A stretch of 64,000 nucleotides of DNA from Candidatus Manganitrophaceae bacterium (GTDB lineage Bacteria > Nitrospirota > Nitrospiria > SBBL01 > Manganitrophaceae): the NCBI GenBank assembly GCA_016200325.1, contig JACQEZ010000001.1, positions 248,001 to 312,000 of the forward strand. The letters are read 5' to 3'. The notes beneath the pieces were generated by a model that worked only from the letters and a program-made list of their open reading frames with translations, made no database searches and was not told the DNA's origin. A program made the translations under genes and the position numbers. Of this stretch, positions 26,920-46,144 are shown piece by piece. Every line of letters starts with the position of its first letter. Position 1 is the first letter of the stretch.

Positions 26920-26985
26920 CAGAATCCTCCCCGTTCATTCTAAGGAAAGCGAGTCGGTTGTCTTTACACTATAATCGAAGCGACG

Positions 26986-27357: not shown

Positions 27358-27422
27358 CTTCCCTCCCCTCACCGATGCCGAAGTGGAATCCAAGACGCTT
27401 GGATACCATACCGACTTTTTTT

Positions 27423-27428
27423 TGTCAA
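27423..27428 (-). promoter_or_regulatory. -35 box of leftward cytochrome operon
   Basis: On the minus strand a perfect TTGACA is followed 17 bases later by a weak TATCCA (27405-27400). The -10 is poor, so an activator may be needed. It lies about 70 bases from the rightward -35 box at 27501. Confidence 0.45.
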
Positions 27429-27500
27429 CGAATTTTTCTAAAATCGGTTAACTGAGTGAAAAAAGAGAGCCTTTCGGAACCCGCTTGCCGTTTTTTTTTC

Positions 27501-27528
27501 TTGACAAAAGTTTAAAAAAAACTATAGT
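27501..27528 (+). promoter_or_regulatory. strong promoter of rightward cytochrome operon
   Basis: Perfect TTGACA (27501-27506), a 16-base A-rich spacer and TATAGT (27523-27528). The start site would be near 27535, leaving a leader of about 115 bases before ATG 27649. I looked for a GEMM c-di-GMP riboswitch in that leader and saw none. Confidence 0.75.
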
Positions 27529-27648
27529 AATCCTTGCCGTTTTCATGCATGTGTCTGCATTCAAGATTTCTCTCTGAATCCCTTAGCTGACACCTCGAAG
27601 AACGACCTGCCTGATAGATGATGACAATGCGTGGGGAGTCCGTCCAGG

Positions 27649-28491: not shown

Positions 28492-28507
28492 AGGCCGGAA
28501 GGATTCA

Positions 28508-29578: not shown

Positions 29579-30744
29579 GCGACCGAAACGCGGCGTCCCG
29601 CCAAGAAAGCGGCTTGAATCGTCCTGGGCCGAAGCGCTCTCCGCTGTTTTCCCCTTTCCGGGGGCGGCGGTGGGTTTTTCTCCTCACCGCTTCGGCGGCC
29701 CTTGTTTTCTCTTTGATCAATGTCTTTGCGTTTGAAGATGTCCGCCACACCAAACATAACTTAGCGGTCAATCCAGATATCGGCGCCCGGGAGGGGAGCG
29801 ATTCGAAACCGGGCGAGCTCACCTCGCTTCGGGGGGCGCGAAACCCGGCGGTCCGAGGGGTCGAGGGAGACATCCGCCTGAATGAAGAGGTCTGCATCTT
29901 CTGCCATACGCCGCATGGCGGGCGGAGCAATGTCGGCGGGCTGACCGGCACCGCGCCGCTCTGGAATCGCCGACTCTCCGATCCGATGGGTTTCAGCCCC
30001 TATAACAGCCCCAATTTCGACGGTCAAGACATGATGGGGGCGCCGGGGCGGCCGAAGGGGGTCTCGCTCGCCTGCCTCTCCTGTCACGACGGCGCGGTCG
30101 CCTTCGATGCCTTGATCAACAGCTCCGGGTCGGGCGGCTTCTTTCAGACCAACCGGGTCTTCAACGGCCCTGGGGGGAGCATCGGGATGACGCTGGCGGG
30201 CCCCGCGGTCGACGCGACCAACAGTTTCCGCGAAGGGCGCCGCGATAATACAGAGCGTGGTTTTGTCTTCTTCGACGCGCTCGGTGGGGGACCGAACGCA
30301 TCGCTCGGAGCGGAGCCGTTCCCGAACCTCGGGCTCGATCTGCGCGACGACCATCCAATCAGCATAGAGATCCCCCGGACCGATCCGCAGTTCAGAGAGA
30401 TCTTGGCGAACATCACCACAAAGGGGGGGCGGATGCCGGGGAGCGGCGGCGTGATGTGGATCGATCGGAATCCGAACGGCGCGTTTCTGCCGCTCGACAA
30501 GCGGGATCGGATCCGCGCCTATCCCTCCGATCCAAACCGCCCCGATGCCCCTTACATCGAATGCGCCTCCTGTCACAATCCGCACGAGGCAAGCCGTCCG
30601 AGCGGGCAGCCGGCCCTTTCGGAGCCGATCACCCCACAGACGATCAACAACAACCTCTTCCTCCGGATGGCGTCGATGCCGGGGGCGAATCCACAAGATC
30701 GAAACTCGGGGAGTCTGGTCTGCTTGAGCTGTCACCGGAAGTAA
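29575..30744 (+). CDS. exported tetraheme c-type cytochrome
   Basis: An N-terminal hydrophobic segment (about residues 35-52) ends before DVRHTKHNL, the conserved beginning of the mature domain. Four heme sites follow: CIFCH (about 107), CLSCH (about 167), CASCH (about 331) and the C-terminal CLSCH. Like its paralogues it has CHTPHG, APLWNRRL, SPNFDG, CLSCHDGAV and DLRDDHPISIE. The roughly 160-residue stretch between hemes 2 and 3 lacks CxxCH and may be a surface or polymerisation region. It is coupled to the preceding NHL gene by an ATGA overlap. Confidence 0.92.
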   Translation: MSDRNAASRQESGLNRPGPKRSPLFSPFRGRRWVFLLTASAALVFSLINVFAFEDVRHTKHNLAVNPDIGAREGSDSKPGELTSLRGARNPAVRGVEGDIRLNEEVCIFCHTPHGGRSNVGGLTGTAPLWNRRLSDPMGFSPYNSPNFDGQDMMGAPGRPKGVSLACLSCHDGAVAFDALINSSGSGGFFQTNRVFNGPGGSIGMTLAGPAVDATNSFREGRRDNTERGFVFFDALGGGPNASLGAEPFPNLGLDLRDDHPISIEIPRTDPQFREILANITTKGGRMPGSGGVMWIDRNPNGAFLPLDKRDRIRAYPSDPNRPDAPYIECASCHNPHEASRPSGQPALSEPITPQTINNNLFLRMASMPGANPQDRNSGSLVCLSCHRK

Positions 30745-30754
30745 CGAGGGGGAG

Positions 30755-31330
30755 GTGAAAAAGGAATTTAGAAGTCAGGCGTCAGGCGTCAGCAGTCAGA
30801 AGTCAGGGATGGGAAATACCTTCTTCTGGATTCTGACTGCTGGCTTCTGGTTTCGGGTCTTTCTGGCGCCCCCGGCGCTCTTTGCGGCGGAAGAGGTCGT
30901 CGCTGCAGTGAACCAGGCGCCGATTACCGCGGAGGCGCTCAACCGGGAGGTCCAGACCTATCTTCGCCAGATCGGCCATCGCGAACTTTCGTCCGACCGG
31001 ATGGCGATGCTGAGACGAGAGATGCTGAATAAGCTGATCGATGAGGAGTTGCTCTATCAAGAGGCGCTGAAGCAGGGATGGAAGGTGACCGAGGCGGAAA
31101 CGGAGGCCGAGGTCGATCGCATCCGAAAGCGATTTTCGACACAGCACGATTTCGAGGCGGCGCTGGTGAAAGAGGGGCTCACCCTGGATGCTGTCGAAGC
31201 GGGGGTGCGGCGATTTGTGCTGGTCCGGCGAATGTGGAGCGCCCTTCCCGCCGCGACCGAGACGGAAAAAAAGGGTTGGTTGCAAACGGTCCGGGAGCGA
31301 TCGGACATTCGAATTTATGAAGTGAGGTAG
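30755..31330 (+). CDS. SurA-N-like exported chaperone without rotamase domain
   Basis: The 191-residue protein has the N-terminal fold of SurA/PpiC foldases: VVAAVNQAPITAEALNREV, then MLRREMLNKLIDEELLYQEAL and further helices, but it ends before any parvulin rotamase domain. It may therefore hold rather than isomerise clients, perhaps the barrel or cytochromes next door. Codons about 5-30, including much of the signal peptide, are made of the dispersed repeat at 30764-30850. The start is ATG 30755 with GGAGG upstream. Confidence 0.83.
   Translation: MKKEFRSQASGVSSQKSGMGNTFFWILTAGFWFRVFLAPPALFAAEEVVAAVNQAPITAEALNREVQTYLRQIGHRELSSDRMAMLRREMLNKLIDEELLYQEALKQGWKVTEAETEAEVDRIRKRFSTQHDFEAALVKEGLTLDAVEAGVRRFVLVRRMWSALPAATETEKKGWLQTVRERSDIRIYEVR
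30764..30850. repeat. dispersed inverted repeat inside the chaperone 5' coding region
   Basis: Tandem GTCAGGC/GTCAGAAGTCAG units on the left face TTCTGGATTCTGACTGCTGGCTTCTGG on the right. CAGCAGTCAGAA (30790-30801) is the exact reverse complement of TTCTGACTGCTG (30831-30842). It is the same family as 5036-5108, but here it is translated. Confidence 0.75.
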
Positions 31331-31519
31331 GCAAGGAAGATTTAGAAAGATCAAAAAAACACGGGAAGTGTAGAGTGCGAATGAATGGCCGGCTTGCCAT
31401 CAGGCGGGGGTAGGTTTACGACGGTCAGTCGGCTGAAAAGGGGGTCAGGTCGACCGGAGGGGTGTTCCGGGCGGCTGAGATCTTCTGTGGGACCGTCCTT
31501 GGGGGGAGGAACGCTCCGT

Positions 31520-33379
31520 TTGGAGAAGAGACGCAACGGTTGGATCGGGATGCTCCTGCTGGTTTTCCTTGCGACGGCGCTCTTCTCGCCTCGTCGCGCC
31601 GAGGGACGGCTTCTGAATTTGGGAGGAAGCGCCGACCTGACTTACGGTTATATGCGAACGACCCAGGATTCGATCGAGAATCAACAAGCGGTTACGAAAA
31701 GCCATTTTTTTCAGCAGCGCTACAACCTAAATGATTACGGCGATATCCTCGATCCGCGGCTGGGGACCTTTTCCATCAACGGCACCTTCTTCAGCCAGGA
31801 TGGCCATACCAACGGAGATTTTGCAGATCAGAATTTCAACTTCACCGATTATTCGGTGGCGATGAATCTCTTCCCCTATATTTCGCCGCTCAGCCTCTAT
31901 GCGCAACGGGTCAGCCGCTCCAATGACCTCGATGTCGTGGTCAAAGACACCGTCACCACCTACGGCGCCAACTGGTCGCTCTCGGTGCCGCGCCTGCCGC
32001 GACTTTCCCTTTCATATAATCAGTCGGAGCTAAAGGCGAACGACCCGAATCGGTTTCCTGACCAGCTGAACCGTTACTTCAATGCGGAGTCGAGCGGCCG
32101 GATCGGCGATACAACGTTGATCGGACGGTATCAATTCAATCAAACCGACGTCGGTCGAATCGACGGCGATGTCGGCACCATTCGCGGCCAGGGGGTCAAT
32201 CTGACGACCGAAACTCGGCTCTCCTCGGCCCTCAACCTGAGCACTTTTACACGCTGGGCCAATATCTCCGGGACCGCCGCGCCGGGATTGACCTTTTCTC
32301 AGGAGCGGGGGATCAGCGCCTCCCTCTTTTATACCCCCAGCGTTTTCTGGGACACCCATGCGCAGATCGAATATGCGGAGTCGCCCGACACCATCGATCT
32401 AAAGCGGCTTCTTGCCGCCTGGAGCGGCTCGCTCCGCCCGACGGAGCTCGTCGATATGGTGGCGAGCGTTCGCCTTTTCCAATTCGAGGTCGGCGACACC
32501 AAGACGACCTCTCCGTTCAGCGATTTTAACCTCAATTATCGTCCCTTTTTCGGTTTGGGCACCGGAGTCGGAACGTCGGTGGGGGAGACGAAAACGGAAG
32601 GATTCGGCGCCTCGACCGAGTCGTTCTACCAGCGCTATCGCGGCTATGTCAACTACACCCGCTCAATCGAGATTATCCGCTACACCGCCAGCTACGCGCT
32701 CAGTTATGGGACGGCCGACACCTCCCGGAACAATCTCGGCGACCCGAACAAAGACAAGTTGAAAGACCTGATGAATACCGTGACGCTGGGGGTGGAGAAC
32801 ACGCAGATCCGGATTGTCCATGTCGCCTTGGCCTATACCTATAACGATATTAATCGGAGCAGCCCCACCGTCCAGCCGGAGGACGACCAGCGGTCGCATG
32901 TCTTCCAGGTCAACGTCGACAGCAACTACTTCCGCGGCCTCGTTTTTCTCGACGACTCCCTGCTGCTCCAATCCTCTTCGAGCCTGACGCGGATCCATGG
33001 ATTCGGCCCTGAAGGAAACACCTTCATGTTCGACCTTCGCGGGAGCTACTACTTCTTCGGCGGGGGGCTCCTCTCGGCGGGATGGACGCGGCAAGATTAT
33101 CCGTCCGGTTTTTATCTCGACTCGAATCTCTTTTTTGAGGAGATCCAGTGGAACTTCTATCTCGGGAGGTCGAACATCACCCTCAGCGGGCGAGACGGAC
33201 ACCAACGGGGCGATGGGAATGTCTCCCTCGATCGCGACACGCTGGAGCTCACGACACTGCTGACCTATCAGATCGGAAAGTTTATTTTTAACGTCGATTA
33301 CCGGTGGGCCAACGACCGAACGGCCGGGGTCGGTTATCGAAGTGAGACCTTCTTCGCCAGGGCGACCCGGATTTTCTAA
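31520..33379 (+). CDS. outer-membrane beta-barrel protein of the cytochrome cluster
   Basis: The frame is open from 31385, but TTG 31520 has GGAGGA 9 bases upstream and yields a textbook signal peptide (LEKRRNGWIG, then MLLLVFLATALFS, then RRAEG). The mature part (about 590 residues) is built of alternating-residue strands with Tyr/Phe at the ends and turns rich in Asp/Gly, and it ends RATRIF with terminal Phe, the outer-membrane insertion signal. I estimate 20 or more strands. No heme site and no MtrB-type Cys motif is present, so the family is unassigned. I infer a pore or sheath for a cytochrome conduit or filament exit, from its position between cytochromes. Confidence 0.85.
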   Translation: MEKRRNGWIGMLLLVFLATALFSPRRAEGRLLNLGGSADLTYGYMRTTQDSIENQQAVTKSHFFQQRYNLNDYGDILDPRLGTFSINGTFFSQDGHTNGDFADQNFNFTDYSVAMNLFPYISPLSLYAQRVSRSNDLDVVVKDTVTTYGANWSLSVPRLPRLSLSYNQSELKANDPNRFPDQLNRYFNAESSGRIGDTTLIGRYQFNQTDVGRIDGDVGTIRGQGVNLTTETRLSSALNLSTFTRWANISGTAAPGLTFSQERGISASLFYTPSVFWDTHAQIEYAESPDTIDLKRLLAAWSGSLRPTELVDMVASVRLFQFEVGDTKTTSPFSDFNLNYRPFFGLGTGVGTSVGETKTEGFGASTESFYQRYRGYVNYTRSIEIIRYTASYALSYGTADTSRNNLGDPNKDKLKDLMNTVTLGVENTQIRIVHVALAYTYNDINRSSPTVQPEDDQRSHVFQVNVDSNYFRGLVFLDDSLLLQSSSSLTRIHGFGPEGNTFMFDLRGSYYFFGGGLLSAGWTRQDYPSGFYLDSNLFFEEIQWNFYLGRSNITLSGRDGHQRGDGNVSLDRDTLELTTLLTYQIGKFIFNVDYRWANDRTAGVGYRSETFFARATRIF

Positions 33380-33409
33380 GAGAAGGTCTCGGTTTCGCGG
33401 AAGGATGGA

Positions 33410-34480
33410 ATGAACGATCAGCAAGGAGAAAAAAAGAGAAGTCCGCTTCGAACTCTCCTGATCGGACTGCTCTTGCTGGCGTTGGCCGCCTGTGCGGAGG
33501 CGCCGGTCGAAAAGCGGCCGACCCTCTTCTGGCCCGATCCGCCCGATCCGCCGAAGATCAGCTATATCCAAAATCTGGCCGAGCCGAAGGATGTCGGGGT
33601 GACCCCTTCGTGGTTTAAGAAGGTGGTTCGGTTCATATTCGGCGAGGATGCGCCGCCCCACCTGATTCGTCCTTCCGGGGTTGCCGTTGACGAAGCGGGG
33701 GGGGTTTACATTGCCGATACCGGCCTGCAAGCGGTTCACTACTTCAACGAGAAAGAGCATACCTACCGCCAATATTTCAAGCTTCCTCCACCGTTTAACC
33801 GGCTGCAAAATCCGATCGGACTCGCCGTTGACCGATCGAAGCAGGTCTATGTCTCCGACGCCGATCTCAATCGGATTTTCGTCTACAATCCCGAGGGGAA
33901 CAAAGTTCGGGTGTTCGGGGGAGAAGCGGAGGTGAAGCGGGTCTCCGGGATCGCGATCGATCAGGGACGCGATCGGCTCTATGTCGTCGATACCACGGGG
34001 CATCAGGTGATCATCTATACCCTCGCCGGAGAGAAGACGGGGACGATCGGCCGGCGGGGAACGGCAGACGGCGAGCTCAATTTCCCCACCTATGCCGCCG
34101 TCGATGCCGAGGGGCGCATTTATATCTCCGACTCGCTCAATTTTAGAATCCAGGTCTTCAATCCGGACGGGACGTTCGTCTCCCAGGTTGGAAGCCTCGG
34201 AAGCACCTTGGGACAATTCTCTCGGCCCAAGGGGGTGGCGGTCGACCGGGAGAATCATCTTTATGTGGTCGACACCCTCTTCGACAATGTTCAGGTTTTC
34301 AATACGTCGGGGGAGCTGCTCCTTCATTTTGGAAAATCGGGGGTCGAGCCGGGATTTTTCTGGCTGCCGGCCGGCATTGCCGTCGACCGCGAGGGGCGGA
34401 TCTATGTTGCCGACGCCTACAATCAGCGGGTGCAAGTGTTTCAGCTGTTGCAGGAGGCGCCGCCGGCGCAGAAGGGGTAG
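33410..34480 (+). CDS. second NHL-repeat propeller lipoprotein
   Basis: This 356-residue paralogue of the 28508 protein has a lipobox (LAACAEA, Cys about residue 27), a W-P-D-P-P-D-P-P segment and six NHL blades (GGVYIADTGLQAVHYF, DRLYVVDTTGHQVIIY, GRIYISDSLNFRIQVF and others). It starts 30 bases after the barrel gene in the same operon. Having one propeller next to the pentaheme/tetraheme pair and one next to the barrel suggests that each serves a different partner. Confidence 0.93.
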   Translation: MNDQQGEKKRSPLRTLLIGLLLLALAACAEAPVEKRPTLFWPDPPDPPKISYIQNLAEPKDVGVTPSWFKKVVRFIFGEDAPPHLIRPSGVAVDEAGGVYIADTGLQAVHYFNEKEHTYRQYFKLPPPFNRLQNPIGLAVDRSKQVYVSDADLNRIFVYNPEGNKVRVFGGEAEVKRVSGIAIDQGRDRLYVVDTTGHQVIIYTLAGEKTGTIGRRGTADGELNFPTYAAVDAEGRIYISDSLNFRIQVFNPDGTFVSQVGSLGSTLGQFSRPKGVAVDRENHLYVVDTLFDNVQVFNTSGELLLHFGKSGVEPGFFWLPAGIAVDREGRIYVADAYNQRVQVFQLLQEAPPAQKG

Positions 34481-34525
34481 GCGTGACGCGTGAATAGGAT
34501 ATCGGCTGTCAGAAGGGCTCGGATG

Positions 34526-34554
34526 TTGACAAACGAACGACCGGTTATTATAGT
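34526..34554 (+). promoter_or_regulatory. strong promoter of the dodecaheme cytochrome
   Basis: Perfect TTGACA (34526-34531), 17 bases, TATAGT (34549-34554). Both boxes are identical to those of the promoter at 27501-27528. The start codon at 34573 follows only about 12 bases after the expected start site. Confidence 0.78.
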
Positions 34555-34572
34555 GATCGCCGGGATGGAGTC

Positions 34573-37500
34573 ATGGGGAAGATGAGGAAAAGATTTACGT
34601 CCAGATTCAGCGCAAGAGGACTGTCGATCCTCCTCCTCTTCCTCTTGGGAACCGCTGCACTCTCTTTTCTCGGTCTTCCTTTTCGAACCCCCTCTTCGGC
34701 GCAACCGACCGTCGAGCCGTTCAATGAAGATGTCAGCGACACCAAACACAACCTCTCCGCCAATCCGGTTCCGAACCCGACCCTCTTCCAACACCTCTTC
34801 GATCCCGACATCGAGCGGAACATTAAATCGGTCGCAGGACCGCAAGGGACGACTGAAGTCTGCGTCTTCTGCCATACCCCTCACGGCGCCAGCCAAGAAG
34901 GGGTGAAGATCCGGGCGCCGATCTGGAACCGGAATCTCTCGCCGGCCCACTATCAGATGTATGATCAGGTCTGGAGCAAGTCGTTCGAGGCGAAGCCGAA
35001 CGCCCCCGGCCGGCCGACCGGCTACTCGCGCCTCTGCCTCTCTTGCCACGACGGAACGATTGCGTTGGGAAGTGTCCTCAACAAACCGGGAAGCGGCGGG
35101 TATGATCCGACCGGGCTCAATCCGATCCAAATGGAATACCCGACCGGCCAGCGGCCCGCCGGCCCGCCGGGGAGCATGCCGGTGGGGGAGGGGCCGACCC
35201 AGCAGGCGACCCGGGTGATCGGGCGGGACCTTCGAAACGACCATCCGATCTCGATGACGTTCGACACGGAGCTTCTCTCCAAAGACTCCGAGTTCGTCAA
35301 CCCCGGCCCGCCGATCCGCCGCCCCTTCACGCAGAGCACGCCGACGCCGCTCTCCCCGCTGCGGCGGGCGACCGGCAACAGCACCGAGGTTTTCGATTCG
35401 GTTCAGTGCACCTCGTGCCACAACCCGCACCAGGTCGATTTTCCAAAATTCCTCCGAGCGAATCGCCTCCAATCGACGACCTTTGCCGCCTCGCAGGCGG
35501 AGAAGCACCCCGGGCAGCCGAGCACGGAGGCCCCCCCCAAGGGAGGCGGGGCGATCATCTGCCTCTTCTGCCACGACAAGCCGGGATGGCCCTACAATCC
35601 GGCCGATCTAAACACTCACTTCGGCGACCGCCAGACCGGTCAGTTCGACGACTCCCGCTTAAAACCGGGGGCCACCAACCTCCACAACGGCGAAGCGCCG
35701 ATGGTGGCGGAGCGGGCCTGTCTCGTCTGCCACGATCCGCACACCCGCCAAGGAGCGGTCCGGATCATGCGGGAGGGGGTCGATCAGTTCGGGAATGTCG
35801 CGATCGAGCAGACCTGTTTCCAATGCCATCAGCCGCAAGAGACGTCGATTCTGCAGGCGCCGACCCGCGCCCCCGATATCCGGACCCAATTCTTTAAAGA
35901 CCGGGAGGGGAATGGCAACCATGGCCAGGACCACGGCACCGGCACCGGCAGCGCGATGGACCTCACCTTGGCGCTCGGCCATCAGCCGGTCTTTATCGAT
36001 CTGCCGAAAGAAGGGGTGCAGCTGGGGAGCGACAACCGGCTCCCCTCCTTCTTCGGCGGGCCGTTTACCGAGCCGGCCAACAACAAGTCGCTCACCGAAA
36101 ACGCGCCCCCGAGCCCCGATACGTCGCATGTCGAATGCGTCGACTGCCACAACATGCACCGGGTCACCCGACGAAACCGCTTCCAGGGAATGCCGGGGGT
36201 GACCATCAAAGGAGGGATCGTCGCCGAGACATTGAAGTCGGTCGACGAGCGTCGGGAGCCGTATATCTACGAGGTTTGCCTCCGCTGCCACGGGAATACC
36301 TTCAACAACCATGTCCGCGAGGCGCTCTTTGCTTCGGCCGGGACCCATAAGATGGTTCAGGCGCGGGGGAACAACCCGGTCAATCCGGCCTTGGGGGTCA
36401 ACGCCCATGGGAGCAATAAGCGGAAGGAATTCGATCCGACCTCCGTCGTATTTTATCCGGACAACTTCAAAACTCAAAACCCGGCCGACCCGCTCGGACC
36501 GCTGATGCCTGATCCGAACCCCCCTCGATTTAACAGCTCTTTTCATCCGGTCTTTCAGCCGGGGCGGAATCAGTCGGGGGTGTTGAACAACTACACCAAC
36601 AACATGGCCATCCCCACACAACAAGGGCAGCTACTGGGAAGAATGGGGTTGAGCCGGGAGCGGACGATTCACTGCACCGATTGTCACAACACCGATCTCT
36701 TCGGGACCTATCTCGGCGGACCGCTTCCTTTCACGAGAATATTTAGCGCCCTTGGATTTCCGGCGCTGCTCGGATGTTGGGATGGGAGCCAGAACGTCAG
36801 CTGCCCCGACTACCCGGGACCGATCACCTTCGACGACACACGGGGGACCGCGTATCGCCGGATCACCGACGTTCCCAACGACATCCCGGTCAACCCGGAA
36901 GGGACTCGCGTATCCAGCCTCAACGATCCGAAAGCGCCGCAGGGGCCGCATGGGTCGATCTACAAGAGAATCCTGCGCAATAACTATGACACGAAAATCG
37001 GGACCGCTTCGCACGCGTTGATCGGAGACAGTCTCTGCGATAATTCCACTCCCGGCAGTTGTACGGGGCATGCGACGAGAACCTATAATCCCCAGAATTT
37101 TGCCCTCTGTTTTAATTGCCATTCGGAGGCAGCCTTTGTCACCCCTTATTGGGAAGGCCCTGGAACGATTGGGCCAAAAAGCCGTCTGACCAATTTTTAC
37201 AGAGGCGGGACGCAGAATGTGGACGGCCAAGGAAACGCCGGTGGAAATCTTCATATGCTTCATCTCGTCGGCCGGACCAATGCGCGGTGTCATGAATGCC
37301 ACAACAATGTTCACAGCAACGTCGAAGCGGGCAATACCGTTTATGTCGGCCTGAGCGATCCTACGTTCATTACCGACAATCCGGGCCACAACCTCGATAC
37401 CCACCTGATTAACTTCCAGCCGAACATTAAGGGGAATCGGATTGAAGACCAACCGCTCTGGGGGGCAGGCAAAATGGTCAATGGCGTCAATGCTCCCCTT

Positions 37501-37620
37501 CAGAACACGGTCGATGACTACAGTGCAGGCCATAAGGGCCCCGGCTGTAACCTTCGATGCCACGGTTTCAGAATGCGACACAATACGGATGCCCATGCCG
37601 TCGTCAACGGTCAGAAATAG
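34573..37620 (+). CDS. large exported dodecaheme c-type cytochrome
   Basis: A signal peptide (about residues 17-43, ending PSSAQ) precedes DVSDTKHNLSAN, the same mature start as the tetraheme protein. There are eleven CxxCH sites (CVFCH, CLSCH, CTSCH, CLFCH, CLVCH, CFQCH, CVDCH, CLRCH, CTDCH, CFNCH, CHECH) and one C-terminal CNLRCH, a CX3CH site, giving twelve possible hemes in 1015 residues. The first third repeats the CHTPHG, PIWNRNL, CLSCHDGTIALGS and DLRNDHPISM landmarks of its paralogues; the rest is new. The low heme density leaves large heme-free stretches. ATG 34582 is an alternative start. An extracellular terminal reductase/oxidase or filament subunit is inferred. Confidence 0.93.
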   Translation: MGKMRKRFTSRFSARGLSILLLFLLGTAALSFLGLPFRTPSSAQPTVEPFNEDVSDTKHNLSANPVPNPTLFQHLFDPDIERNIKSVAGPQGTTEVCVFCHTPHGASQEGVKIRAPIWNRNLSPAHYQMYDQVWSKSFEAKPNAPGRPTGYSRLCLSCHDGTIALGSVLNKPGSGGYDPTGLNPIQMEYPTGQRPAGPPGSMPVGEGPTQQATRVIGRDLRNDHPISMTFDTELLSKDSEFVNPGPPIRRPFTQSTPTPLSPLRRATGNSTEVFDSVQCTSCHNPHQVDFPKFLRANRLQSTTFAASQAEKHPGQPSTEAPPKGGGAIICLFCHDKPGWPYNPADLNTHFGDRQTGQFDDSRLKPGATNLHNGEAPMVAERACLVCHDPHTRQGAVRIMREGVDQFGNVAIEQTCFQCHQPQETSILQAPTRAPDIRTQFFKDREGNGNHGQDHGTGTGSAMDLTLALGHQPVFIDLPKEGVQLGSDNRLPSFFGGPFTEPANNKSLTENAPPSPDTSHVECVDCHNMHRVTRRNRFQGMPGVTIKGGIVAETLKSVDERREPYIYEVCLRCHGNTFNNHVREALFASAGTHKMVQARGNNPVNPALGVNAHGSNKRKEFDPTSVVFYPDNFKTQNPADPLGPLMPDPNPPRFNSSFHPVFQPGRNQSGVLNNYTNNMAIPTQQGQLLGRMGLSRERTIHCTDCHNTDLFGTYLGGPLPFTRIFSALGFPALLGCWDGSQNVSCPDYPGPITFDDTRGTAYRRITDVPNDIPVNPEGTRVSSLNDPKAPQGPHGSIYKRILRNNYDTKIGTASHALIGDSLCDNSTPGSCTGHATRTYNPQNFALCFNCHSEAAFVTPYWEGPGTIGPKSRLTNFYRGGTQNVDGQGNAGGNLHMLHLVGRTNARCHECHNNVHSNVEAGNTVYVGLSDPTFITDNPGHNLDTHLINFQPNIKGNRIEDQPLWGAGKMVNGVNAPLQNTVDDYSAGHKGPGCNLRCHGFRMRHNTDAHAVVNGQK

Positions 37621-37622
37621 GA

Positions 37623-38444
37623 ATGTCTTTTAGGAAAGTACTTCTTATTTCTGTTTTTATCGTTCTACCTGTTGGGCTTCTCTTTTATTTTTTCTCGCCT
37701 CTCTTATCGAAAAAGGAAATTCCCTCGGAGATGGTCCTGGTCCCCCATGGTGAATTTATCATGGGGAGCAATGACGTCGATAAAACCGAAAGCCAGACTG
37801 AATTCGGAAGCAAAAAACCGTGGTACCTCGACGAGCACCCGCAGCGGAAGCTCTCCCTCCCCGATTTTCTGATCGACCGATATGAGGTGACGGATAAAGA
37901 GTATGCCGCGTTCGTCCAGGAGCGGCAGCGGAAGCCGCCGGCGTCGTGGAAGGAAGGACGCTATCCGGAAGGCCAGGCGGAGTACCCCGCCACGGAGATC
38001 AATTGGTATGAAGCCCAGGATTACTGCCGCTGGCGCGGCAAGCACCTTCCGACCGAAGCGGAGTGGGAGAAGGCGGCGCGCGGACCGCAGGGAAATCTTT
38101 ATGTCTGGGGAAATGAGTTCGACGCCAAAAAGGCGAACGTCAGCGCCGGCGGCTTCGGCGATGCGACCCCGGTCGGCCGCTGGAAAGACGACCGGAGCGT
38201 CTATGGGGTGTTCGATTTAAACGGCAATGTAATGGAATGGGTGGCCGACTGGTACAAAGCGTTTCCGGGGGGGAACTATCAAAGCGCCGACTTCGGAGAG
38301 CAGTTTAAAGTCGCCAAAGGAGACGCCTTCGGCGAATCGGGCCACTACTCCCTCCCTCTCTTCTCAAGACTCTCCTTCCGACAAAATGTCGAGCCGCTGG
38401 CGCGTTATCCTTTCTTAGGATTTCGCTGCGCCAGAAGTCAATAG
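37623..38444 (+). CDS. SUMF1/FGE-like anchored protein at end of cytochrome cluster
   Basis: One N-terminal span (about residues 7-26) precedes a formylglycine-generating-enzyme-like domain: MVLVPHGEFIMGS, PWYLDEHPQ, DRYEVTDKEYAAF, WYEAQDYCRWRGKHLPTEAEWEKAARG and NGNVMEWVADWY. As in its paralogue at 7438, the active-site Cys pair is absent (FGESGHYSLPLFSRLS). ATG 37623 lies 2 bases after the dodecaheme stop, so the two are likely co-translated, and the longer frame overlapping that gene is rejected. A carbohydrate-, metal- or protein-binding accessory role is inferred. Confidence 0.87.
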   Translation: MSFRKVLLISVFIVLPVGLLFYFFSPLLSKKEIPSEMVLVPHGEFIMGSNDVDKTESQTEFGSKKPWYLDEHPQRKLSLPDFLIDRYEVTDKEYAAFVQERQRKPPASWKEGRYPEGQAEYPATEINWYEAQDYCRWRGKHLPTEAEWEKAARGPQGNLYVWGNEFDAKKANVSAGGFGDATPVGRWKDDRSVYGVFDLNGNVMEWVADWYKAFPGGNYQSADFGEQFKVAKGDAFGESGHYSLPLFSRLSFRQNVEPLARYPFLGFRCARSQ

Positions 38445-38472: not shown

Positions 38473-41400
38473 TTAGCGGGCGGTATCGACCGCCACCGCC
38501 AACGGCTGATTGAAGCCGGTGTTGTTTCCGGAGATCGTTCTGTGCGGGGCGTCTCCCTCGGCGTTGTTCGCTTCGGTGAAGAGGTAGACGGCGTTGGCGG
38601 TCGGATCAGCCACATAGAGCAGATCGCCCACCGAGTCGAGAAAGAGGGAGGTAGGGACCTTCATAAAGCTGCCCGAGATAATGCGGGACGGCCCAATGTC
38701 GCCGGCCAGCGAAGAGGCATCGGAGAAGACCAGAATCTCGGGGGTGCCGGCTCCGTTGAGAACATAGAGCAGGTCTCTGATTGCATCATACGCGACCCCG
38801 ATCGGGGCATTGATCTGGGTCGCCGCCCCTCCGATCTCCGCGTCGGGGGTGACCGCCACTTTCAGCTGCTCGACATTCCTAAAGACCAAGATCGAATGGC
38901 TGCCGTTGTTCGCAACGTAGAGGGTCTTCCGCGTCGGATCGAGCGCCAGCCCCCGCGGGCTGTTCAGCGCCGTGCTGGTGATGACTTGATCGGGGATCGC
39001 ATCGTTATTGAGGTTGCTCGCGGTGTGGAAGACGAGCAGGGCGTTGCAGGGGGTGGCGGGGTTGGAGCAATCGGTCCCGGCGTTGGAGACATAGAGGCGG
39101 TTCTGATCCGAATCGACCGCCAGCCCCCCCGGATTGTTTAGCTTGGTATCGGGGCTGACGCAGCTCGTTCCGGCGGGGCTGCAGATGTTCCGCGGAAGAC
39201 GGGAGGCGACCTGGTTCGAAGCGGTGGTTCCCGTATAAGGAGCGACCAGCGTTAGAGAAGTGTCGGACGTAATCGCCGAGACGACCGCCGAAGACGACCC
39301 GATTTTGATCCGATCGCCCGGTTCCAACTCCGTCGTAAAGGCCGTTCCGGTTCCAGTGACCTCTGCGGTTCCTCCCGTCAGGGCCAGGGTGCCGGTCAGG
39401 GGAAGGGTTCCTTCCGCTTGACTCGCCTGGGTAAAGAGCTCGATCGAATCGTCGGCGGTCGACGCCGGGTCTCCCTGATTGGCGACATAGAGCAGATCTC
39501 GCTTCGTATCGATCGCAATCGCCACCGGCCCGATCAGCCGCTGCTCTCCTCCGCTCCACACCTGGCTGGGGGTGATGTTTCCCTCCGCGCTGAAGAGCAA
39601 CAGGGCGCCGCGCGCGCATTGGTTCGGAGGCAGGGTGCAGCCGGGGTCTTTCGGCTCGCCGACGAAGATCCGCTCTCCCCCCCGCGTCGTGTCGACCCAG
39701 AGGGCGCCGGTGATGGCGACATCGTTCCCTTGCGTGAAGTCGAGCTGCGTGTTGGGGCCGGACAATTTCCGGCTCGGCGCGACCTCGCCGTTGAGGGTGC
39801 TGACGCGGTCATAAACATAGATCGAATCATTGCCGCGGTTGATCAAGAAGAGGCGGTCTTTCGCGACGTTCATGAAGGGGGCGGTCGGCGTGCTCAGGGC
39901 ATCCGCAGTCGTCAAGGTCAGCGAGGAGAGGACGCGGTCGGGGGGGGTGTTCCCCGATCGGCTGCTGGCATTACTGAAAGCGATGACGGTCTGGCCGGTA
40001 ATATTGGTCACATAAAGAATGTCCCGCGCCGTGTCGATGAACAGTCCGAAAGGGCTGAGGAGCTTAGTGGCGGCGCCGGTAATGGTCCGCGTCGGGGCGG
40101 AAGAGGCGCAGACGGTGGCGGTGCAGCTGTTAAAGTTGTAAACGACGATGCTTTGATTTCCTTCATTGGCGACATAGACCTCTCCCTTTGCTGGGTCGAC
40201 CGTGATGGCCGTCGGTCGATTGAGCCCGATCGTAAAGCTCGCGAGCGCCGTAATGGTGACATTGGTCCCGACCGGAGCGGTGGAGAGATTGGGGAGGGGA
40301 TAGACGCGAAGCTCATAGCTAAACGATTCCAGGACCAGCAGAAGGTTCCGCGCCTTATCCACATAGACGGCCCGGGGGAATCTCAACGAGGGATCGGCCA
40401 GCCCCCAGCTCGGCGGGGTGTTCGCCAGGGGGGCGCTGCTCACCTGATCGTAGACGGTGATCGGCGGAGAGGCCGAGGCGAATCGGAAAGAGTAGTTGGC
40501 GACATAAAGGCGATCGAGGTCGCTGTCATAAAAGAACGAGATCGGCTGCTCCAGCTTGGTATTGATCCCGGCGTCTATTTTGGTCGGCGAGATATTCCCC
40601 TCCATCCCGAACAAAGAGATCGTGCTCGCCGTACTGTTTGCCACATAAATCCGCTCCAGCTGTGAATCGAAAGCGAGGCCGTTCGGATCGGAGAAGCCGG
40701 TTTGATCTCCGGTGATGACCCGGTCCGGGGCCAGATTGCAGAGGGTGTCTGTGCAGCGGCCCTCGATGTTGCTGAAGACGATGACCGCGCTGGCGCCGCT
40801 TCCGGCATGGTTGTTGTTGATCACGAAGATTCGATTTTGAACCGGATCGATATCGGCGGCGGTCGGCGCGCCGAGAAGCGTCGCGGTGCCGGTTAGAATT
40901 CGATCGGGAGCCGTCTCACCCGACTGGGTGGAGGCGGCGTCGTAGATGAAAATGGCCGGCGAATCTCCCCCGGCATTGACCGCATACAGGCGATCGTTTG
41001 CCGAATCGAGGGTGAGGCCGAAGGGGCGGCGGAGCGCTCCGGCCGGGGTGGCGGCGGAGGTGATGACCCGGCTGGGAGGGGTGTCACAGGGGTTCGGTGT
41101 CTTGACGCAGTCGGCCGGTGCGCCGCCTCGGCTGGTCGCCTGATCATACGCCAGGAGGTTGTCGGCCTGCGTGTTGGAGAGATAAAGGATGTCTTTACCG
41201 GTATCGAGCGCCAGCGCTTTGGGAGAATGGATCGCGGTCGATGGGCCTGCGATCACCTTGCAAGGAGGGATGTTGCCGTTGAGCAGCGCGGAGGTCGCGC
41301 AGCTGGCATGAAAGACGACGACCGACGAGTCCCCCTCATTGGCGACATAGAGCCGCTGCTGTACGGTGTCATAAAAGAGGGCGCTGGGGCGTTGGAGCCG

Positions 41401-41805
41401 GGTCTGCGGGCCTGAAATCATTCGAGTCGGCGAGGTCAATCCGACCGGCGGCCGGAGGGTGCTCGCATGCTCAAAGATGAGGACGGCATTTTGACCGGTA
41501 TTGGCCACATAGAGGGTGTCTGTCGTGGGATCTAAGAAGAGCCCCGTGGGGCCGGCCAGCGTCTCCGGAAAGTGGCGGCTGGGGGAGAGATCCCCATCGG
41601 CCGTGACGGCGCTGTCAAAAGCGGACACGCTCCCTGTCCCTCCATTGACGACGTAGAGATTCCCATCCCCTTGCGCGGCGGCGTTGGGTCCATTCAGCCG
41701 GTCACCGCCGCCTCCCCCCGAGCCGCCGCAACCCTGCAGGGTCCCTATCGAAAGAAGGAAGAAGACGAATGCTGTCCATCGTATCGGTTTCACGTCGCGG
41801 GTCAC
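38473..41805 (-). CDS. giant beta-propeller lipoprotein (1110 residues)
   Basis: A lipoprotein signal (lipobox TLQGCG with a Gly-rich tail after Cys) is followed by about twenty repeats of 45-60 residues with the core D-x-x-x-D-x-L-Y-V-A-N-x-x-x-x-x-I-x-V-F and P-x-R-x-I-x-G, enough for two or three propellers. Around residues 800-860 one blade carries an inserted beta domain (TGGTAEVTGTGTAFTT, then EPGDRIKIG, then TSDTSLTLVAPY). The start is a GTG whose bases overlap the stop of the upstream paralogue (GTGA). It converges with the SUMF1-like gene. Function unknown; a large surface adhesin or scaffold is inferred. Confidence 0.88.
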   Translation of the reverse strand: MTRDVKPIRWTAFVFFLLSIGTLQGCGGSGGGGGDRLNGPNAAAQGDGNLYVVNGGTGSVSAFDSAVTADGDLSPSRHFPETLAGPTGLFLDPTTDTLYVANTGQNAVLIFEHASTLRPPVGLTSPTRMISGPQTRLQRPSALFYDTVQQRLYVANEGDSSVVVFHASCATSALLNGNIPPCKVIAGPSTAIHSPKALALDTGKDILYLSNTQADNLLAYDQATSRGGAPADCVKTPNPCDTPPSRVITSAATPAGALRRPFGLTLDSANDRLYAVNAGGDSPAIFIYDAASTQSGETAPDRILTGTATLLGAPTAADIDPVQNRIFVINNNHAGSGASAVIVFSNIEGRCTDTLCNLAPDRVITGDQTGFSDPNGLAFDSQLERIYVANSTASTISLFGMEGNISPTKIDAGINTKLEQPISFFYDSDLDRLYVANYSFRFASASPPITVYDQVSSAPLANTPPSWGLADPSLRFPRAVYVDKARNLLLVLESFSYELRVYPLPNLSTAPVGTNVTITALASFTIGLNRPTAITVDPAKGEVYVANEGNQSIVVYNFNSCTATVCASSAPTRTITGAATKLLSPFGLFIDTARDILYVTNITGQTVIAFSNASSRSGNTPPDRVLSSLTLTTADALSTPTAPFMNVAKDRLFLINRGNDSIYVYDRVSTLNGEVAPSRKLSGPNTQLDFTQGNDVAITGALWVDTTRGGERIFVGEPKDPGCTLPPNQCARGALLLFSAEGNITPSQVWSGGEQRLIGPVAIAIDTKRDLLYVANQGDPASTADDSIELFTQASQAEGTLPLTGTLALTGGTAEVTGTGTAFTTELEPGDRIKIGSSSAVVSAITSDTSLTLVAPYTGTTASNQVASRLPRNICSPAGTSCVSPDTKLNNPGGLAVDSDQNRLYVSNAGTDCSNPATPCNALLVFHTASNLNNDAIPDQVITSTALNSPRGLALDPTRKTLYVANNGSHSILVFRNVEQLKVAVTPDAEIGGAATQINAPIGVAYDAIRDLLYVLNGAGTPEILVFSDASSLAGDIGPSRIISGSFMKVPTSLFLDSVGDLLYVADPTANAVYLFTEANNAEGDAPHRTISGNNTGFNQPLAVAVDTAR

Positions 41806-44800
41806 CTGGTTGTGTCAACAAAAACGGCCGCGGGCTGATTGAGCCCGGTGTTGTTTCCGGAAGTGGTGCTATGGCTCGCCTCACCTGCGGCGCTGCTTGC
41901 GGTGGTGAAGGTGTAAACGGCATTGTTGTCCCGGTCCGCCACATAAAGCAGATCCTGTTGCGGGTCGAGGAAGAAGGCGGTGGGGGTTTTCATAAAGCCG
42001 TTCGAGAGAATCCGGGTCGGCGCGACATTCCCGTTTAAAGAGGAGGCTTGGGAGAAGACCAAGATCTCGGTGTTGCCGCTGTTGAGAACATAGAGAAGGT
42101 CTCTGCTTGCATCATAGGCGACCCCGATGGGGGCGTTGATCTGGGTCGCCGCCCCTCCGATCTCGGCATCGGGGGTCACCGCTCCGTTCAGCTGGTCGAT
42201 GTTTTTGAAGAGGAGAACCGAGTGGCTGCCGTTATTCGCGACGTAGAGGGTCTTTCGCGCCGAATCGAGCGCTATTCCGCGCGGGCTGTTCAGCGCCGTG
42301 CCGGTGATAACCTGACTCGGCGTCGAATTCTGGTTCAGATCACTGGCATCGTCGAAGACGAGCAGGGCGTTGCAGGGAGCGGCGGGGTCGGAGCAATCGG
42401 TCCCGGCATTGGAGAGATAGAGACGGTTCTGATCCGAGTCGACCAACAGCCCTCCCGGATTATTCAACTGCGAGCCGGCGCTCTGACAGGTCGTCCCGAT
42501 CGGGCTGCAGAGCATACGGGGGACGAAAGAGGCAGGAAGATCGGTGCCGGAGGCGCCGGTGTAGGGAGCCGTGAGCGTCAGCGCGGTATCGGAGTCGATC
42601 GAGGCGATCTGATAAGCGGTCGATCCGATCCGAATCGAATCGCCGGGAGCAAGCGCCGTCGTAAAGGCGGTTCCCGTTCCGGCGACCTCCGCGGAGCCGG
42701 TGGTCACCGTCACCGTCCCGGTGATCGGCAAGGTTCCATTCGCCTGACTCGCGTTGGTAAAAATCAATATCGAATCGTCGGCCCGCTGCGCCGGATCACC
42801 CTGGTTTGCAATATAGAGAATATCCCGAACCGGATCCAACGCCATCGCGGCGGGGCCGGTCAGCGGCGAGACTGCGCCGGCGGAGAGGGTGCCGCTGGCG
42901 GGGGTATTTCCCTGAACGCCGAAGATCAAGAAAGAGCCGCGGCAGGGGGGGCAGGCGGGGGTCGGGTTTTTCGGCTCTCCGACAAAAAGGGTCTCTTTCC
43001 CCTGGGTCGTATCGACGTAAAGGGCGCCGGTCGTGTTGGCCGAGCCGGAGAAGGCCAGGAGGGTGTCGGTCCCCGAGACGATGCGATCGGGACGGGTCGG
43101 GCCCGACCGCGTGCTCGCCTTCTCGAAGACAAAGATACTGTCCTTTGCCCAGTTAATAAGATAGAGACGATCGGTTACCGGATCGACAAACGGCGCGATC
43201 GGCGTATCCATCTGCTCCGCAGGGGCAAAGGTGGGGGACGACGAGATGATCCGATCGGGCGCCGTATTGCCCGATCGGGTGCTGATCTGATCAAACACCA
43301 GAACCGAGTTGGCCGTCGGTCCATTATTGCTGCTCGGAGGGGGATAGGAGATATTCGTCACATAGAGCCGGTCGTTCGTCGTATCGAGGAAGACGCCGTG
43401 CGGGCGGTTCAGGCCGGTCGACGGTCCGGTGATGGTTCGATCGGGCGCGCTCTTTTTGGGGTCCGCGGGGGTGTTTGGATCGAGGTTGTCATAGCGATAG
43501 ATGACGATGCTGTTCACATTCGTCGCGGCGGGACAGAGGCTGAAGCTCCCGGTGTCGCAATCGGTGACCACATAGAGCTCGCCGGCTGCCTCATCGACCG
43601 CCATCGCCCTTCCGCGGGTAAAGCCTCTGAAGGTGGTCGGACCGGTCGGGAGGGTGACGGCATTCCCGGCCGGTGGGGTGGCACTGTTTGCCTGAGCGAA
43701 ATTATAAATGAAAATCTTATTATTAAATCCATTTAGGATGATTAAGAGATTCCGCCTTTTATCGACGTAAACCCCCCTCGCCTGCTGGATATCAAGCCCT
43801 TCAAGGGGATTGGTGATTCCGCCTTGGATCGTCCAGCTCGGCGGGGTATTCAGGTAACTTCGGCTGCTCGCTTGTTCGTAGACGAGGATGGGGGGGGTTC
43901 CGGCGGTGCTGGCGTTAAAGTTCGCAATGTAGAGGCGATCGAGCGGTTTGTCATAGAAGAAGGCCGACGGCTGTTCCAGCAACGTGTTGAGCTCCGGATT
44001 CCCGCTGGTGCCCGAGTTGAACTGCAGCGGGGTGAGGTCGCTCTTCAGTGCAAAGACGAGGACATTGTTCCCCTGAGAGTTCCCGACATAGATGATCTCG
44101 TGTTGCGGGTCGTAGGCGACGCCGGCCGGATTGGCCAGGCCGGTTCGCTGTCCGGTGACGGCCCGGTCCGGCGCGAAGTTGCAGAGGTGGGTGCCAAGCG
44201 GACACTTTGTGTTGAAGTCGGAATAGACCACCAAGGCGGTGCTGCCGTTATTCGTATTGTTCTCGTTCACGACATAGAGCCGGTCTTGTTCAACAAAGAG
44301 GTCGATCCCGGCCGGGTTGGAGAGCTGGGTCTGCTGACCGGCGAAGACCCGGTCAGGGACGATCGCTCCCGATCGGGTGCTGGCGTTATCATAGATTAAG
44401 ATGCCCGGCTGGTTTCTTCCTGAATTGATGACATAGAGCCGGTCGTCGGCGCTGTCGATGAAGAGGCCGAACGGATTGTAAAGCATGCTGTCGGTTTCCG
44501 AAGCATCGGTGTGGGAGGAGATCACCCGCGTCGGGGGAAGGTCTCTCTGGGTCGTCGGCTGGGAAGCGTTCTCGTAAACCAAAATAGAATTGGTTCCCAG
44601 ATTCGAGATATAGAGAATATCCCGCTGCGTATCGACGGTCACGGCCCGTGGAAAGTCGAGCAACGTCGACCCGCCGATCAGGGTCCGGCAGGGAGCGATA
44701 TCCCCATTCAGGTTATTCTGCTCCGGACAGTCTTTCTGGAAAACGGAGACCAGATTCTCTCGATTGACCACATAGAGCCGTTGGCGGGTCGGGTCGTACG

Positions 44801-45242
44801 TCACCCCATAGGGACGGTCGAGCCCCGTTTTGGGGCCGGTGATCACCCGCGTGGCATTGGCCGGTCCGGCCGAGAGATCGAGCGTGCTGACGTTTTCATA
44901 AATGAGGATGGCGTCGGAGTCGGTATTTGCGACATAGAGGGTGTCGCTGGTTCGATCGAGGAAGAGGCCGATCGGTCCGGCGACCGTCTCCGGAAAGCGT
45001 CGGCTCGGAAGGATATTCCCTTGTGTCTGAAGGGCCTGATCGAATGTGACGAGGCTGCCGTCCCCCCCGTTGGCGATATAGATTCTCCCCGCTTTTGGGG
45101 AAGAAGGGGCGGCTGCGGGGCTTTTTTTGTCCCCCGAGAGGCCCTCACAGCCGCTGAGACCGACGGCCCAAAGAAGGGACAATAATAAGATCCATATCGA
45201 AGCGAATTGAGCAGGATTGTCCCTTTGGTTCCGGATGTTCAT
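41802..45242 (-). CDS. giant beta-propeller lipoprotein (1146 residues), paralogue
   Basis: This is the upstream twin of the 1110-residue protein, with a lipobox (LSGCEG, Cys about residue 32), the same repeats (for example DILYISNLGTNSILVY and DRLYVVNRENLVSVF) and the same inserted beta domain around residues 832-890 (TTGSAEVAGTGTAFTT). The N- and C-terminal repeats are closest between the two; the middle has diverged. It lies 38 bases after panC but has its own promoter. Its stop overlaps the start of the second copy, so the pair is made together. Confidence 0.89.
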   Translation of the reverse strand: MNIRNQRDNPAQFASIWILLLSLLWAVGLSGCEGLSGDKKSPAAAPSSPKAGRIYIANGGDGSLVTFDQALQTQGNILPSRRFPETVAGPIGLFLDRTSDTLYVANTDSDAILIYENVSTLDLSAGPANATRVITGPKTGLDRPYGVTYDPTRQRLYVVNRENLVSVFQKDCPEQNNLNGDIAPCRTLIGGSTLLDFPRAVTVDTQRDILYISNLGTNSILVYENASQPTTQRDLPPTRVISSHTDASETDSMLYNPFGLFIDSADDRLYVINSGRNQPGILIYDNASTRSGAIVPDRVFAGQQTQLSNPAGIDLFVEQDRLYVVNENNTNNGSTALVVYSDFNTKCPLGTHLCNFAPDRAVTGQRTGLANPAGVAYDPQHEIIYVGNSQGNNVLVFALKSDLTPLQFNSGTSGNPELNTLLEQPSAFFYDKPLDRLYIANFNASTAGTPPILVYEQASSRSYLNTPPSWTIQGGITNPLEGLDIQQARGVYVDKRRNLLIILNGFNNKIFIYNFAQANSATPPAGNAVTLPTGPTTFRGFTRGRAMAVDEAAGELYVVTDCDTGSFSLCPAATNVNSIVIYRYDNLDPNTPADPKKSAPDRTITGPSTGLNRPHGVFLDTTNDRLYVTNISYPPPSSNNGPTANSVLVFDQISTRSGNTAPDRIISSSPTFAPAEQMDTPIAPFVDPVTDRLYLINWAKDSIFVFEKASTRSGPTRPDRIVSGTDTLLAFSGSANTTGALYVDTTQGKETLFVGEPKNPTPACPPCRGSFLIFGVQGNTPASGTLSAGAVSPLTGPAAMALDPVRDILYIANQGDPAQRADDSILIFTNASQANGTLPITGTVTVTTGSAEVAGTGTAFTTALAPGDSIRIGSTAYQIASIDSDTALTLTAPYTGASGTDLPASFVPRMLCSPIGTTCQSAGSQLNNPGGLLVDSDQNRLYLSNAGTDCSDPAAPCNALLVFDDASDLNQNSTPSQVITGTALNSPRGIALDSARKTLYVANNGSHSVLLFKNIDQLNGAVTPDAEIGGAATQINAPIGVAYDASRDLLYVLNSGNTEILVFSQASSLNGNVAPTRILSNGFMKTPTAFFLDPQQDLLYVADRDNNAVYTFTTASSAAGEASHSTTSGNNTGLNQPAAVFVDTTR

Positions 45243-45250
45243 ACGGCGCC

Positions 45251-45279
45251 ATTATTTTAGAAAAAGAGGGATCTGTCAA
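45251..45279 (-). promoter_or_regulatory. promoter of the giant propeller operon, near-leaderless
   Basis: On the minus strand a perfect TTGACA (45279-45274), 17 bases, AATAAT (45256-45251). The ATG at 45242 is 8 bases after the -10 box and no ribosome site fits between. Confidence 0.6.
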
Positions 45280-45280
45280 G

Positions 45281-46144
45281 CTAAAAAAACCGAGGTGACG
45301 GTTTGGTTTGGATCAAGAGATTGTCGAGGAGGCGGACCGGCCCGATTCGAACCGCCAAAAGGAGAACCGTCCTCTCTTCAACCCGATCGATCGGCTCCAA
45401 CGTTTCGGAATTACAGAGGGTCGCGTAATCGATGGCAGCCCGCGGTTCCGATTCAATCAACGATTCGGCCTCGGCGAGGAGCGTCTTTGCGTCCCGCACC
45501 CCCTGACGAATGAGCGCTTCAACCCGTCTGAGCGCCTGATACAAGATCGGCGCCGCCGCCCGGTCGGCCGGAGAGAGGCGCCGGTTTCGGGAGCTCATCG
45601 CCAGGCCGTCTTTCTCCCGGTAGGTCGGACGAATCCGGAGGGTGATGTCGAAGTGAAGGTCTCGGACCATCTGCCCGATCACCCGCGTCTGCTGATAATC
45701 CTTCTGTCCGAAATAGGCCCGGTCGGGCCGGACCACCTGAAAGAGCTGGGCGACGACGGTGGCGACCCCCCGGAAATGACCCGGGCGGATGGCCCCTTCC
45801 CATCGCTGCGTGATCTCCTCGACGTTCACATAGGTCCGGTATGAAGGGGGATAGATCTCTTCGGCCGTCGGCGTCCAAAGAAGATCGATTCCGGTTCCCT
45901 GCGCCATCTTCCGGTCGGCGGCAAGATCGCGGGGATAGACGGCATAGTCTTCCTTCGGCCCGAATTGAAGCGGATTGACGAAGAGGGAGACGACGACAGA
46001 GTCGCATTCTCGCCGCGCCTGCCGCATCAGCGAAAGATGTCCTTCATGGAAGGCTCCCATCGTCGGAACAAACCCGATCCGCTTCTTCCCCCGCAGCGGC
46101 CTGAGAATTTTCTGAACGGTTTTGATGCTCGAAACGGTCTTCAT
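45281..46144 (-). CDS. panC: pantothenate synthetase
   Basis: PanC joins pantoate and beta-alanine. The 287-residue protein has VPTMGAFHEGHLSLM with its HxGH nucleotide site, SLFVNPLQFGPKEDY, VEEITQRWEGAIRPGHFRG (under 20 residues quoted), FGQKDYQQ and MSSRNRRL. ATG 46144 gives the family start (MKTVSSIKTVQ); the frame continues upstream to GTG 46189 through a GCGGATTGCGGA repeat, which I do not take as coding. It is the last gene of the lysine/folate run. Confidence 0.95.
   Translation of the reverse strand: MKTVSSIKTVQKILRPLRGKKRIGFVPTMGAFHEGHLSLMRQARRECDSVVVSLFVNPLQFGPKEDYAVYPRDLAADRKMAQGTGIDLLWTPTAEEIYPPSYRTYVNVEEITQRWEGAIRPGHFRGVATVVAQLFQVVRPDRAYFGQKDYQQTRVIGQMVRDLHFDITLRIRPTYREKDGLAMSSRNRRLSPADRAAAPILYQALRRVEALIRQGVRDAKTLLAEAESLIESEPRAAIDYATLCNSETLEPIDRVEERTVLLLAVRIGPVRLLDNLLIQTKPSPRFF

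Follow-up and report, generated by a model that had tools for sequence, protein, structure and literature searches.

The closest described counterparts of the locus analyzed here are two multiheme conduits, PCC_1 of the family Candidatus (Ca.) Manganitrophaceae (PMC9040806) and the Uet complex (PMC10734462), whose described parts recur in the operon treated below: multiheme cytochromes, a peptidyl-prolyl-isomerase-like protein, a β-barrel and two NHL proteins. The available text of PMC9040806 describes three complexes, of which only PCC_1 is shared across the family. The window, a stretch of 64,000 nucleotides from a Ca. Manganitrophaceae genome (G000:C1:248001-312000; 4.2 Mb in 20 contigs), carries an operon of this kind on the plus strand (27631-38444), which is faced on the minus strand by two large lipoprotein genes, here called PropA and PropB. 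Each of the two proteins probably folds into three six-bladed NHL propellers, and each contains an insert that by its sequence is a phage tail-fibre-type domain. PropA and PropB are tentatively interpreted as surface scaffolds or adhesins belonging to the lifestyle of the conduit.

The facing operon encoded, in order, a pentaheme cytochrome, an NHL lipoprotein, a tetraheme protein, a SurA-like protein, a 664-aa β-barrel-like protein, a second NHL lipoprotein, a 12-heme cytochrome, and an FGE-type protein. The 664-aa protein had no Pfam match and is taken as the putative porin. The operon is probably PCC_1, since PCC_1 is the one family-wide complex in the available text of PMC9040806 and the porin gave a single match per genome of the window genus (exactly one in five of six genomes; none was found in the 610 contigs of G003). 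The likeness to the Uet complex is one of parts lists, taken from the available part of PMC10734462, and not of sequences compared with the Tenderiales genes; the Uet complex has an undecaheme cytochrome, whereas the cytochrome of the facing operon has 12 motifs (11 CXXCH and one CX3CH), consistent with the name dodecaheme given to it in the initial annotation. PropA (41802-45242, minus strand, 1146 aa) and PropB (38473-41805, minus strand, 1110 aa, GTG start) were consecutive open reading frames (ORFs) sharing a 4-nt GTGA overlap between the stop of PropA and the start of PropB, and the PropB stop at 38473 was separated by 28 bp from the convergent FGE stop at 38444. The lengths, the overlap and the convergence on the cytochrome operon were all as first annotated. 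The main text of PMC9040806, taken without its supplements and figures, contains the words “propeller”, “lipoprotein” and “NHL” zero times, and the mentions of “propeller” in the available text of PMC11033732 concern N2O reductase. No mention of this family was thus found in these two Manganitrophus papers, nor did such a family appear among the papers listed for NHL or YVTN propellers in electron transfer or in the oxidation of manganese.

Pfam NHL repeats were detected in both proteins (85.6 bits for PropB and 83.3 bits for PropA; cut-off 20 bits). Eighteen “LYVAN”-type blade anchors were counted in each protein, two of those in PropB being first read by eye and then confirmed, so that the YVAN/YISN-type propeller repeats initially annotated stood, while their number fell from about twenty to 18 each. 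The 18 anchors were retained in most of 15 homologues; the blade-15 anchor was degenerate in G014 and left its column empty in G002A and in G005A, and the G001 homologue was truncated by a contig end. AlphaFold2 models had a mean local confidence (pLDDT) of 75.6 and a predicted template modelling score (pTM) of 0.58 for PropA, and 78.5 and 0.69 for PropB. Ring 1 of PropA (44043-45002, minus strand, about residues 81-400; VIA alignments from 85 to 399) matched 6rek with Z 28.9 and a root-mean-square deviation of 2.4 Å over 241 residues, and ring 1 of PropB (about residues 77-402; alignments also from 81 to 401) matched it with Z 29.1 and 2.3 Å over 242 residues. In both models this ring was similar to closed six-bladed NHL and Pizza6 structures (about 240-257 residues, 2.2-2.6 Å, Z of about 29). 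Ring 3 of PropA (41805-42893, minus strand, about residues 784-1146) would be completed by the N-terminal residues 49-70, with VIA alignments from 49 to 1146. Several alignments to this ring began at residues 40-52, ended at 1144-1146 and covered 251-265 residues, including 3v64_C (Z 29.0, 256 residues) and 6i39 (52 to 1144, 251 of 251 residues). Such alignments, whose ranges report the first and last residues only, fit a ring 3 closed by both termini. The N-terminal residues of both proteins provided strands 2-4 of one blade and the C-terminal residues strand 1; for PropB, no end-to-end ring-3 alignment was present among the 50 listed, except for a hard-to-read one from 57 to 1097. Ring 2 of PropA (42918-44030, minus strand, about residues 405-775; anchors 437, 499, 556, 626, 693 and 752) was assigned six blades by subtraction, and none of the listed VIA alignments was confined to the middle six blades. 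Taken together, ring 1 of both proteins and ring 3 of PropA were modelled and ring 2 was obtained by subtraction, and three six-bladed propellers per protein are the probable arrangement, to which the phase of the repeats points as well. A blade-by-blade comparison for whole-ring duplication in 9 of the 15 homologues gave no offset-6 signal (mean similarity of 34.1 at offset 6, with the highest, 36.0, at offset 3), and thus no evidence that one ring arose as a copy of another.

The ring 1 fold resembles the six-bladed NHL propellers of SOQ1, NHLRC2, TRIM-NHL proteins, the PknD sensor, and Pizza6, and sequence matches of profile A1 to SOQ1 (8e-13) and NHLRC2 (2.5e-12) were found as well. In those proteins the propellers are single rings in other contexts, whereas PropA and PropB probably have three per lipoprotein, with the insert as the sole other recognized domain. 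The top Foldseek matches of the whole PropA model were the receptors LRP2, LRP4 and LRP6, which are likewise strings of propellers, located outside the cell, but PropA is a bacterial lipoprotein and the whole-chain TM-scores normalized by query length were 0.13-0.22 in the 50 matches listed. The receptors bear EGF and LDL-A modules, which PropA and PropB do not have. A search of PropB against viral structures gave generic propeller matches only.

The inserts of PropA (42525-42731, minus strand, residues 838-906, 69 aa) and PropB (39199-39405, minus strand; profile A3 match of 1.1e-31 at G000:C1:287199-287405) aligned at the same position, as in the initial annotation, with 60% identity over 74 columns. 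The annotation had also called the insert a non-propeller β domain, without a family name; the domain matched phage tail-fibre families. It matched phrog_1980 with 2.5e-15, and in the PDB, profile A3 matched the distal tail protein gp20 (23gd_B, 1.6e-6) and an F2-pyocin side fibre (25ve_A, 1.3e-4), whereas Pfam gave nothing convincing on the insert (best 0.01). The domain differs from its phage counterparts in its setting, a lipoprotein of the cell in which it occupies the loop of a propeller blade. Structure prediction, which had been proposed for placing the insert and counting blades, supported a six-bladed ring 1 in both models but left the insert poorly modelled (pLDDT below 50 for PropA residues 834-859, 871-876, 891-909, and 913-924). 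A profile search of 58 genomes located the insert in 11, namely all six genomes of the window genus (g1, family f1), G014 of the sister family f5, and G006, G007, G010 and G036; in these last four it belonged to different ORFs, 368-966 aa long, and the remaining seven f5 genomes, and with them the f5 genera g5 and g7, had none. The insert followed blade 14 in PropA and PropB of the window, G002B, G005B, G003, and G001, and lay half a blade later in G002A, G005A, and G014, the last bearing a further copy. The shared site in the window pair agrees with the earlier claim that the insert predates the duplication, while the shifted site leaves the history less clean. The simplest reading of the sequences is that the insert was likely there before PropA and PropB duplicated, although it may instead have moved, been spread by gene conversion, or been gained a second time. 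A 2642-aa fn3-containing protein (L088:1435-9363, minus strand, contig C14 of the window genome) contained at least six copies of the domain and adjoined a 492-aa FG-GAP/Big_2 protein, and similar large frames were observed in G002, G004, and G005.

Both proteins began with a signal peptide, judged by eye, and a lipobox (PropA, LSGC with Cys32, 45147-45242; PropB, LQGC with Cys26, 41728-41805; both on the minus strand). The lipobox cysteine was invariant and the cysteine pairs 172/185 and 347/354 were present in 15 of 15 aligned homologues. Further cysteine pairs were lineage-specific and were gained or lost together, which fits disulfides formed outside the cytoplasm. The conserved pairs bear on export from the cytoplasm only and not on a location at the outer face; PropA and PropB are probably held at the outer membrane, where they would be surface-exposed. 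No CXXCH heme motif was found in the propeller homologues examined.

Propeller genes were sought in relatives with a cut-off of E≤1e-20. A single-protein query of genome contigs returned 108 pattern matches and no relative, whereas an alignment query detected 14 propeller loci. Two named records, G003 (Ca. Manganitrophaceae GW715_bin.13) and G004 (Ca. Manganitrophus sp. GAC4), belonged to g1, and family f5 included a Ca. Manganitrophaceae record (G015), OFTM, and other metagenome-assembled genomes with broader labels; the source organism belongs to the Ca. Manganitrophus group and, by kinship, presumably oxidizes Mn. The propeller gene was present in 14 of 18 genomes of the order, exactly the 14 holding the 12-heme cytochrome, and G006, G007, G008 and G010 had neither. 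Among 295 genomes of the phylum (two draws, taken as the same set), the propeller was found in seven and the porin in 20, with all seven carriers inside the porin set and no propeller match in the other 13. One of the seven, G019 of family f7, was distantly related and had a frame of 1426 aa, and only weak repeat-level matches were found beyond f1, f5, and f7 in the 58 genomes. Propeller genes kept in relatives without the cytochrome locus, which according to the initial annotation would separate the two functionally, were looked for and found in 0 of 4 such genomes of the order and 0 of 275 porin-less genomes of the phylum.

The propeller gene adjoined FGE, in convergent orientation, in five of the six g1 genomes. 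In GAC4 the pair was about 12 kb from the cytochrome operon; a 2464-aa ORF, named RHS/VCBS-like by eye (L054:13494-20888, minus strand), separated PropB from the operon, and PropA, panC and two further genes were split by frame changes, possibly through assembly errors. Family f5 had a single propeller gene away from the conduit cluster. The order rpsB-tsf-propeller was found in six f5 genomes, with the rpsB and tsf families confirmed for G009 and G016. In g7 (G011, G012, and G016), the propeller gene was followed by genes of the Omp85/BamA, OmpH, and LpxD types, whose families were confirmed in G016, and in g5, a gene for a small cytochrome c with two motifs came directly after it (L055:13425-14639, plus strand). 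The contig of G017 ended inside the propeller gene, G014 had other neighbors, and G015 held a contig-end fragment only. Close linkage of the propeller genes to the conduit is thus genus-specific, and the functional tie to the cytochrome operon first implied was supported in part, by co-occurrence but not by linkage beyond the genus. A third, mosaic relative was kept in the genus (L067:7374-11636, L076:2751-6515, and L077:5796-9269, all plus strand); in G003 it had a propeller-like start followed by repeats that looked fn3-like by eye, and adjoined a di-haem oxidoreductase (DHOR) gene.

The number of propeller genes varied between genomes, whereas the porin had one match per genome. G003 had one propeller copy, beside FGE, and the copies of G001, split by a contig end, could not be counted. 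In trees built from the N-terminal part and from the middle part, from which the broken PropA of GAC4 and its PropB were left out, the g1 sequences joined against f5 (99/97) and the three PropB sequences grouped together (100/99 and 100/98), which places the duplication within the g1 line, before the window genome split from G002 and G005. In the C-terminal part, PropA and PropB of the window were nearest to each other (88/92); their identity was 64-84% per segment after residue 906, whereas segments of 100 residues before residue 800 were 33-51% identical. This C-terminal closeness suggests gene conversion. In a comparison of G002 with G005, the ratio of nonsynonymous to synonymous substitution rates (dN/dS) was 0.19 for PropA and 0.24 for PropB; six conduit genes had values of 0.10-0.13, FGE 0.04, panC 0.32, and dNK 0.03, so that both propeller genes are under purifying selection looser than that of the six conduit genes. 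The propellers also diverged faster, with 43% and 56% identity to G002 for PropA and PropB and 81% for the 12-heme protein.

Upstream of PropA, next to panC in the window genus, the sigma-70-like promoter TTGACA-17-AATAAT (45251-45279, minus strand; 11 of 12 positions matched) ended 8 nt before the ATG. The exact pattern occurred once in the window in a scan allowing two mismatches, and promoter-like sites in the region (2) were not in excess of the shuffled mean (1.8). Both hexamers were kept in six of six genus genomes while the flanks diverged, with a spacer of 18 in G004, which supports the initial claim that the pair has its own promoter. A start point 6-8 nt past the -10 hexamer would fall at the ATG, and the PropA mRNA is probably leaderless on the basis of this spacing. 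Nothing equally conserved that would point to PropA and the conduit operon sharing a promoter was found upstream of the pentaheme gene in three genomes; ahead of the 12-heme gene, a 2-mismatch match lay at 34526. A weak terminator-like hairpin after panC (45287-45304, minus strand) was just upstream of the promoter; ten such hairpin sites were counted against a shuffled mean of 7.5. At the other end of the locus, the start of the cytochrome operon was preceded by a short triheme c7-type ORF (about 26900-27640, minus strand) and, beyond it, by a longer triheme gene (26230-26919); several relatives retained both triheme ORFs.

The reading we favor, at somewhat below even odds, is that PropA and PropB are exported three-propeller lipoproteins that act at the cell surface as an adhesin or a binding scaffold, within the conduit lifestyle but not as a fixed subunit of the conduit. 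The lipid-linked N-terminus and the C-terminus would meet in ring 3, so that rings 1 and 2 would stand out from the membrane anchor; the propellers would offer large binding surfaces holding partner proteins, cells, or solid substrate, and the phage-fibre-type insert would be an extra attachment module. The two proteins would share the surface-electron lifestyle of the cytochrome/porin operon and perhaps serve the conduit. Export, selection, fast divergence, partial duplication, likely disulfides, the lack of heme motifs and the attachment-type insert fit such a scaffold or adhesin, and the nested distribution ties the propellers to the conduit-bearing lineage. Several points weigh against this reading. 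The case for adhesion is built on the architecture and the insert type, and an insert missing from g5 and g7 cannot be the core function. The pTM values of the predicted models reached only 0.58 and 0.69, and the dN/dS of panC, an ordinary enzyme gene, makes looser selection weak evidence. The tight conserved linkage and the exact co-distribution at the order level agree just as well with a partner dedicated to the conduit. Accessory subunits docking or orienting the porin/12-heme conduit on the outer face, as the initial annotation implied, are a possible though doubtful alternative, which would also account for the propeller carriers all lying within the porin set, and the two NHL lipoproteins encoded by the conduit operon itself indicate that NHL proteins suit the setting. 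However, the f5 gene is unlinked and many genomes with the conduit have no propeller, which speaks against an obligatory subunit, as do the separate promoter on the opposite strand and a gene number that shifts independently of the conduit, with one copy in G003. The co-occurrence may also reflect one ancestral event, since a single gain would give the same table.

The g7 gene order, with the propeller between tsf and genes for an Omp85/BamA-type protein, a Skp-like OmpH, and LpxD, would suit an outer-membrane assembly or homeostasis factor, but the neighbors are a small cytochrome c gene in g5 and panC in the window genus, and such a factor should be far commoner than seven in 295 genomes, which makes this role improbable. 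An enzymatic role, as a secreted protein of the lactonase, gluconolactonase, or arylesterase type, is even less probable. Pfam Lactonase (PF10282; 84.8 and 70 bits) and Arylesterase (66 and 63 bits) scored above cut-off, but the best stretches covered only positions 243-320 and 239-329 of the 344 in the Lactonase profile and looked like generic propeller repeats, and ring 1 best matched six-bladed NHL structures; the YncE equivalog, which has a cut-off of 400 bits, scored 62.9 and 49.8. A single giant ring of 18 blades, in which the N-terminal half-blade would complement the C-terminal single strand, is very hard to reconcile with the closed six-bladed structures matched by ring 1 in both models, and the largest propellers known in the available text of PMC9218822 are 12-bladed and oligomeric.

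Extending the scaffold interpretation, PropA and PropB could form a lineage-specific outer-surface hub of Mn(II)-oxidizing Ca. Manganitrophaceae, in which the triple propeller and the phage-fibre module would hold manganese carbonate or oxide, or the cell itself, against the porin/12-heme conduit for electron uptake from the solid; in this specific form the proposal is unlikely. Judged from its profile matches, the insert is a clear case of a module of phage-fibre type residing in a propeller protein of the cell. In the sampled genomes, this large exported family was found solely together with the conduit, and it is a candidate for the contact layer still missing from the account of how Ca. 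Manganitrophus takes up electrons from Mn(II), partly present as solid carbonate.

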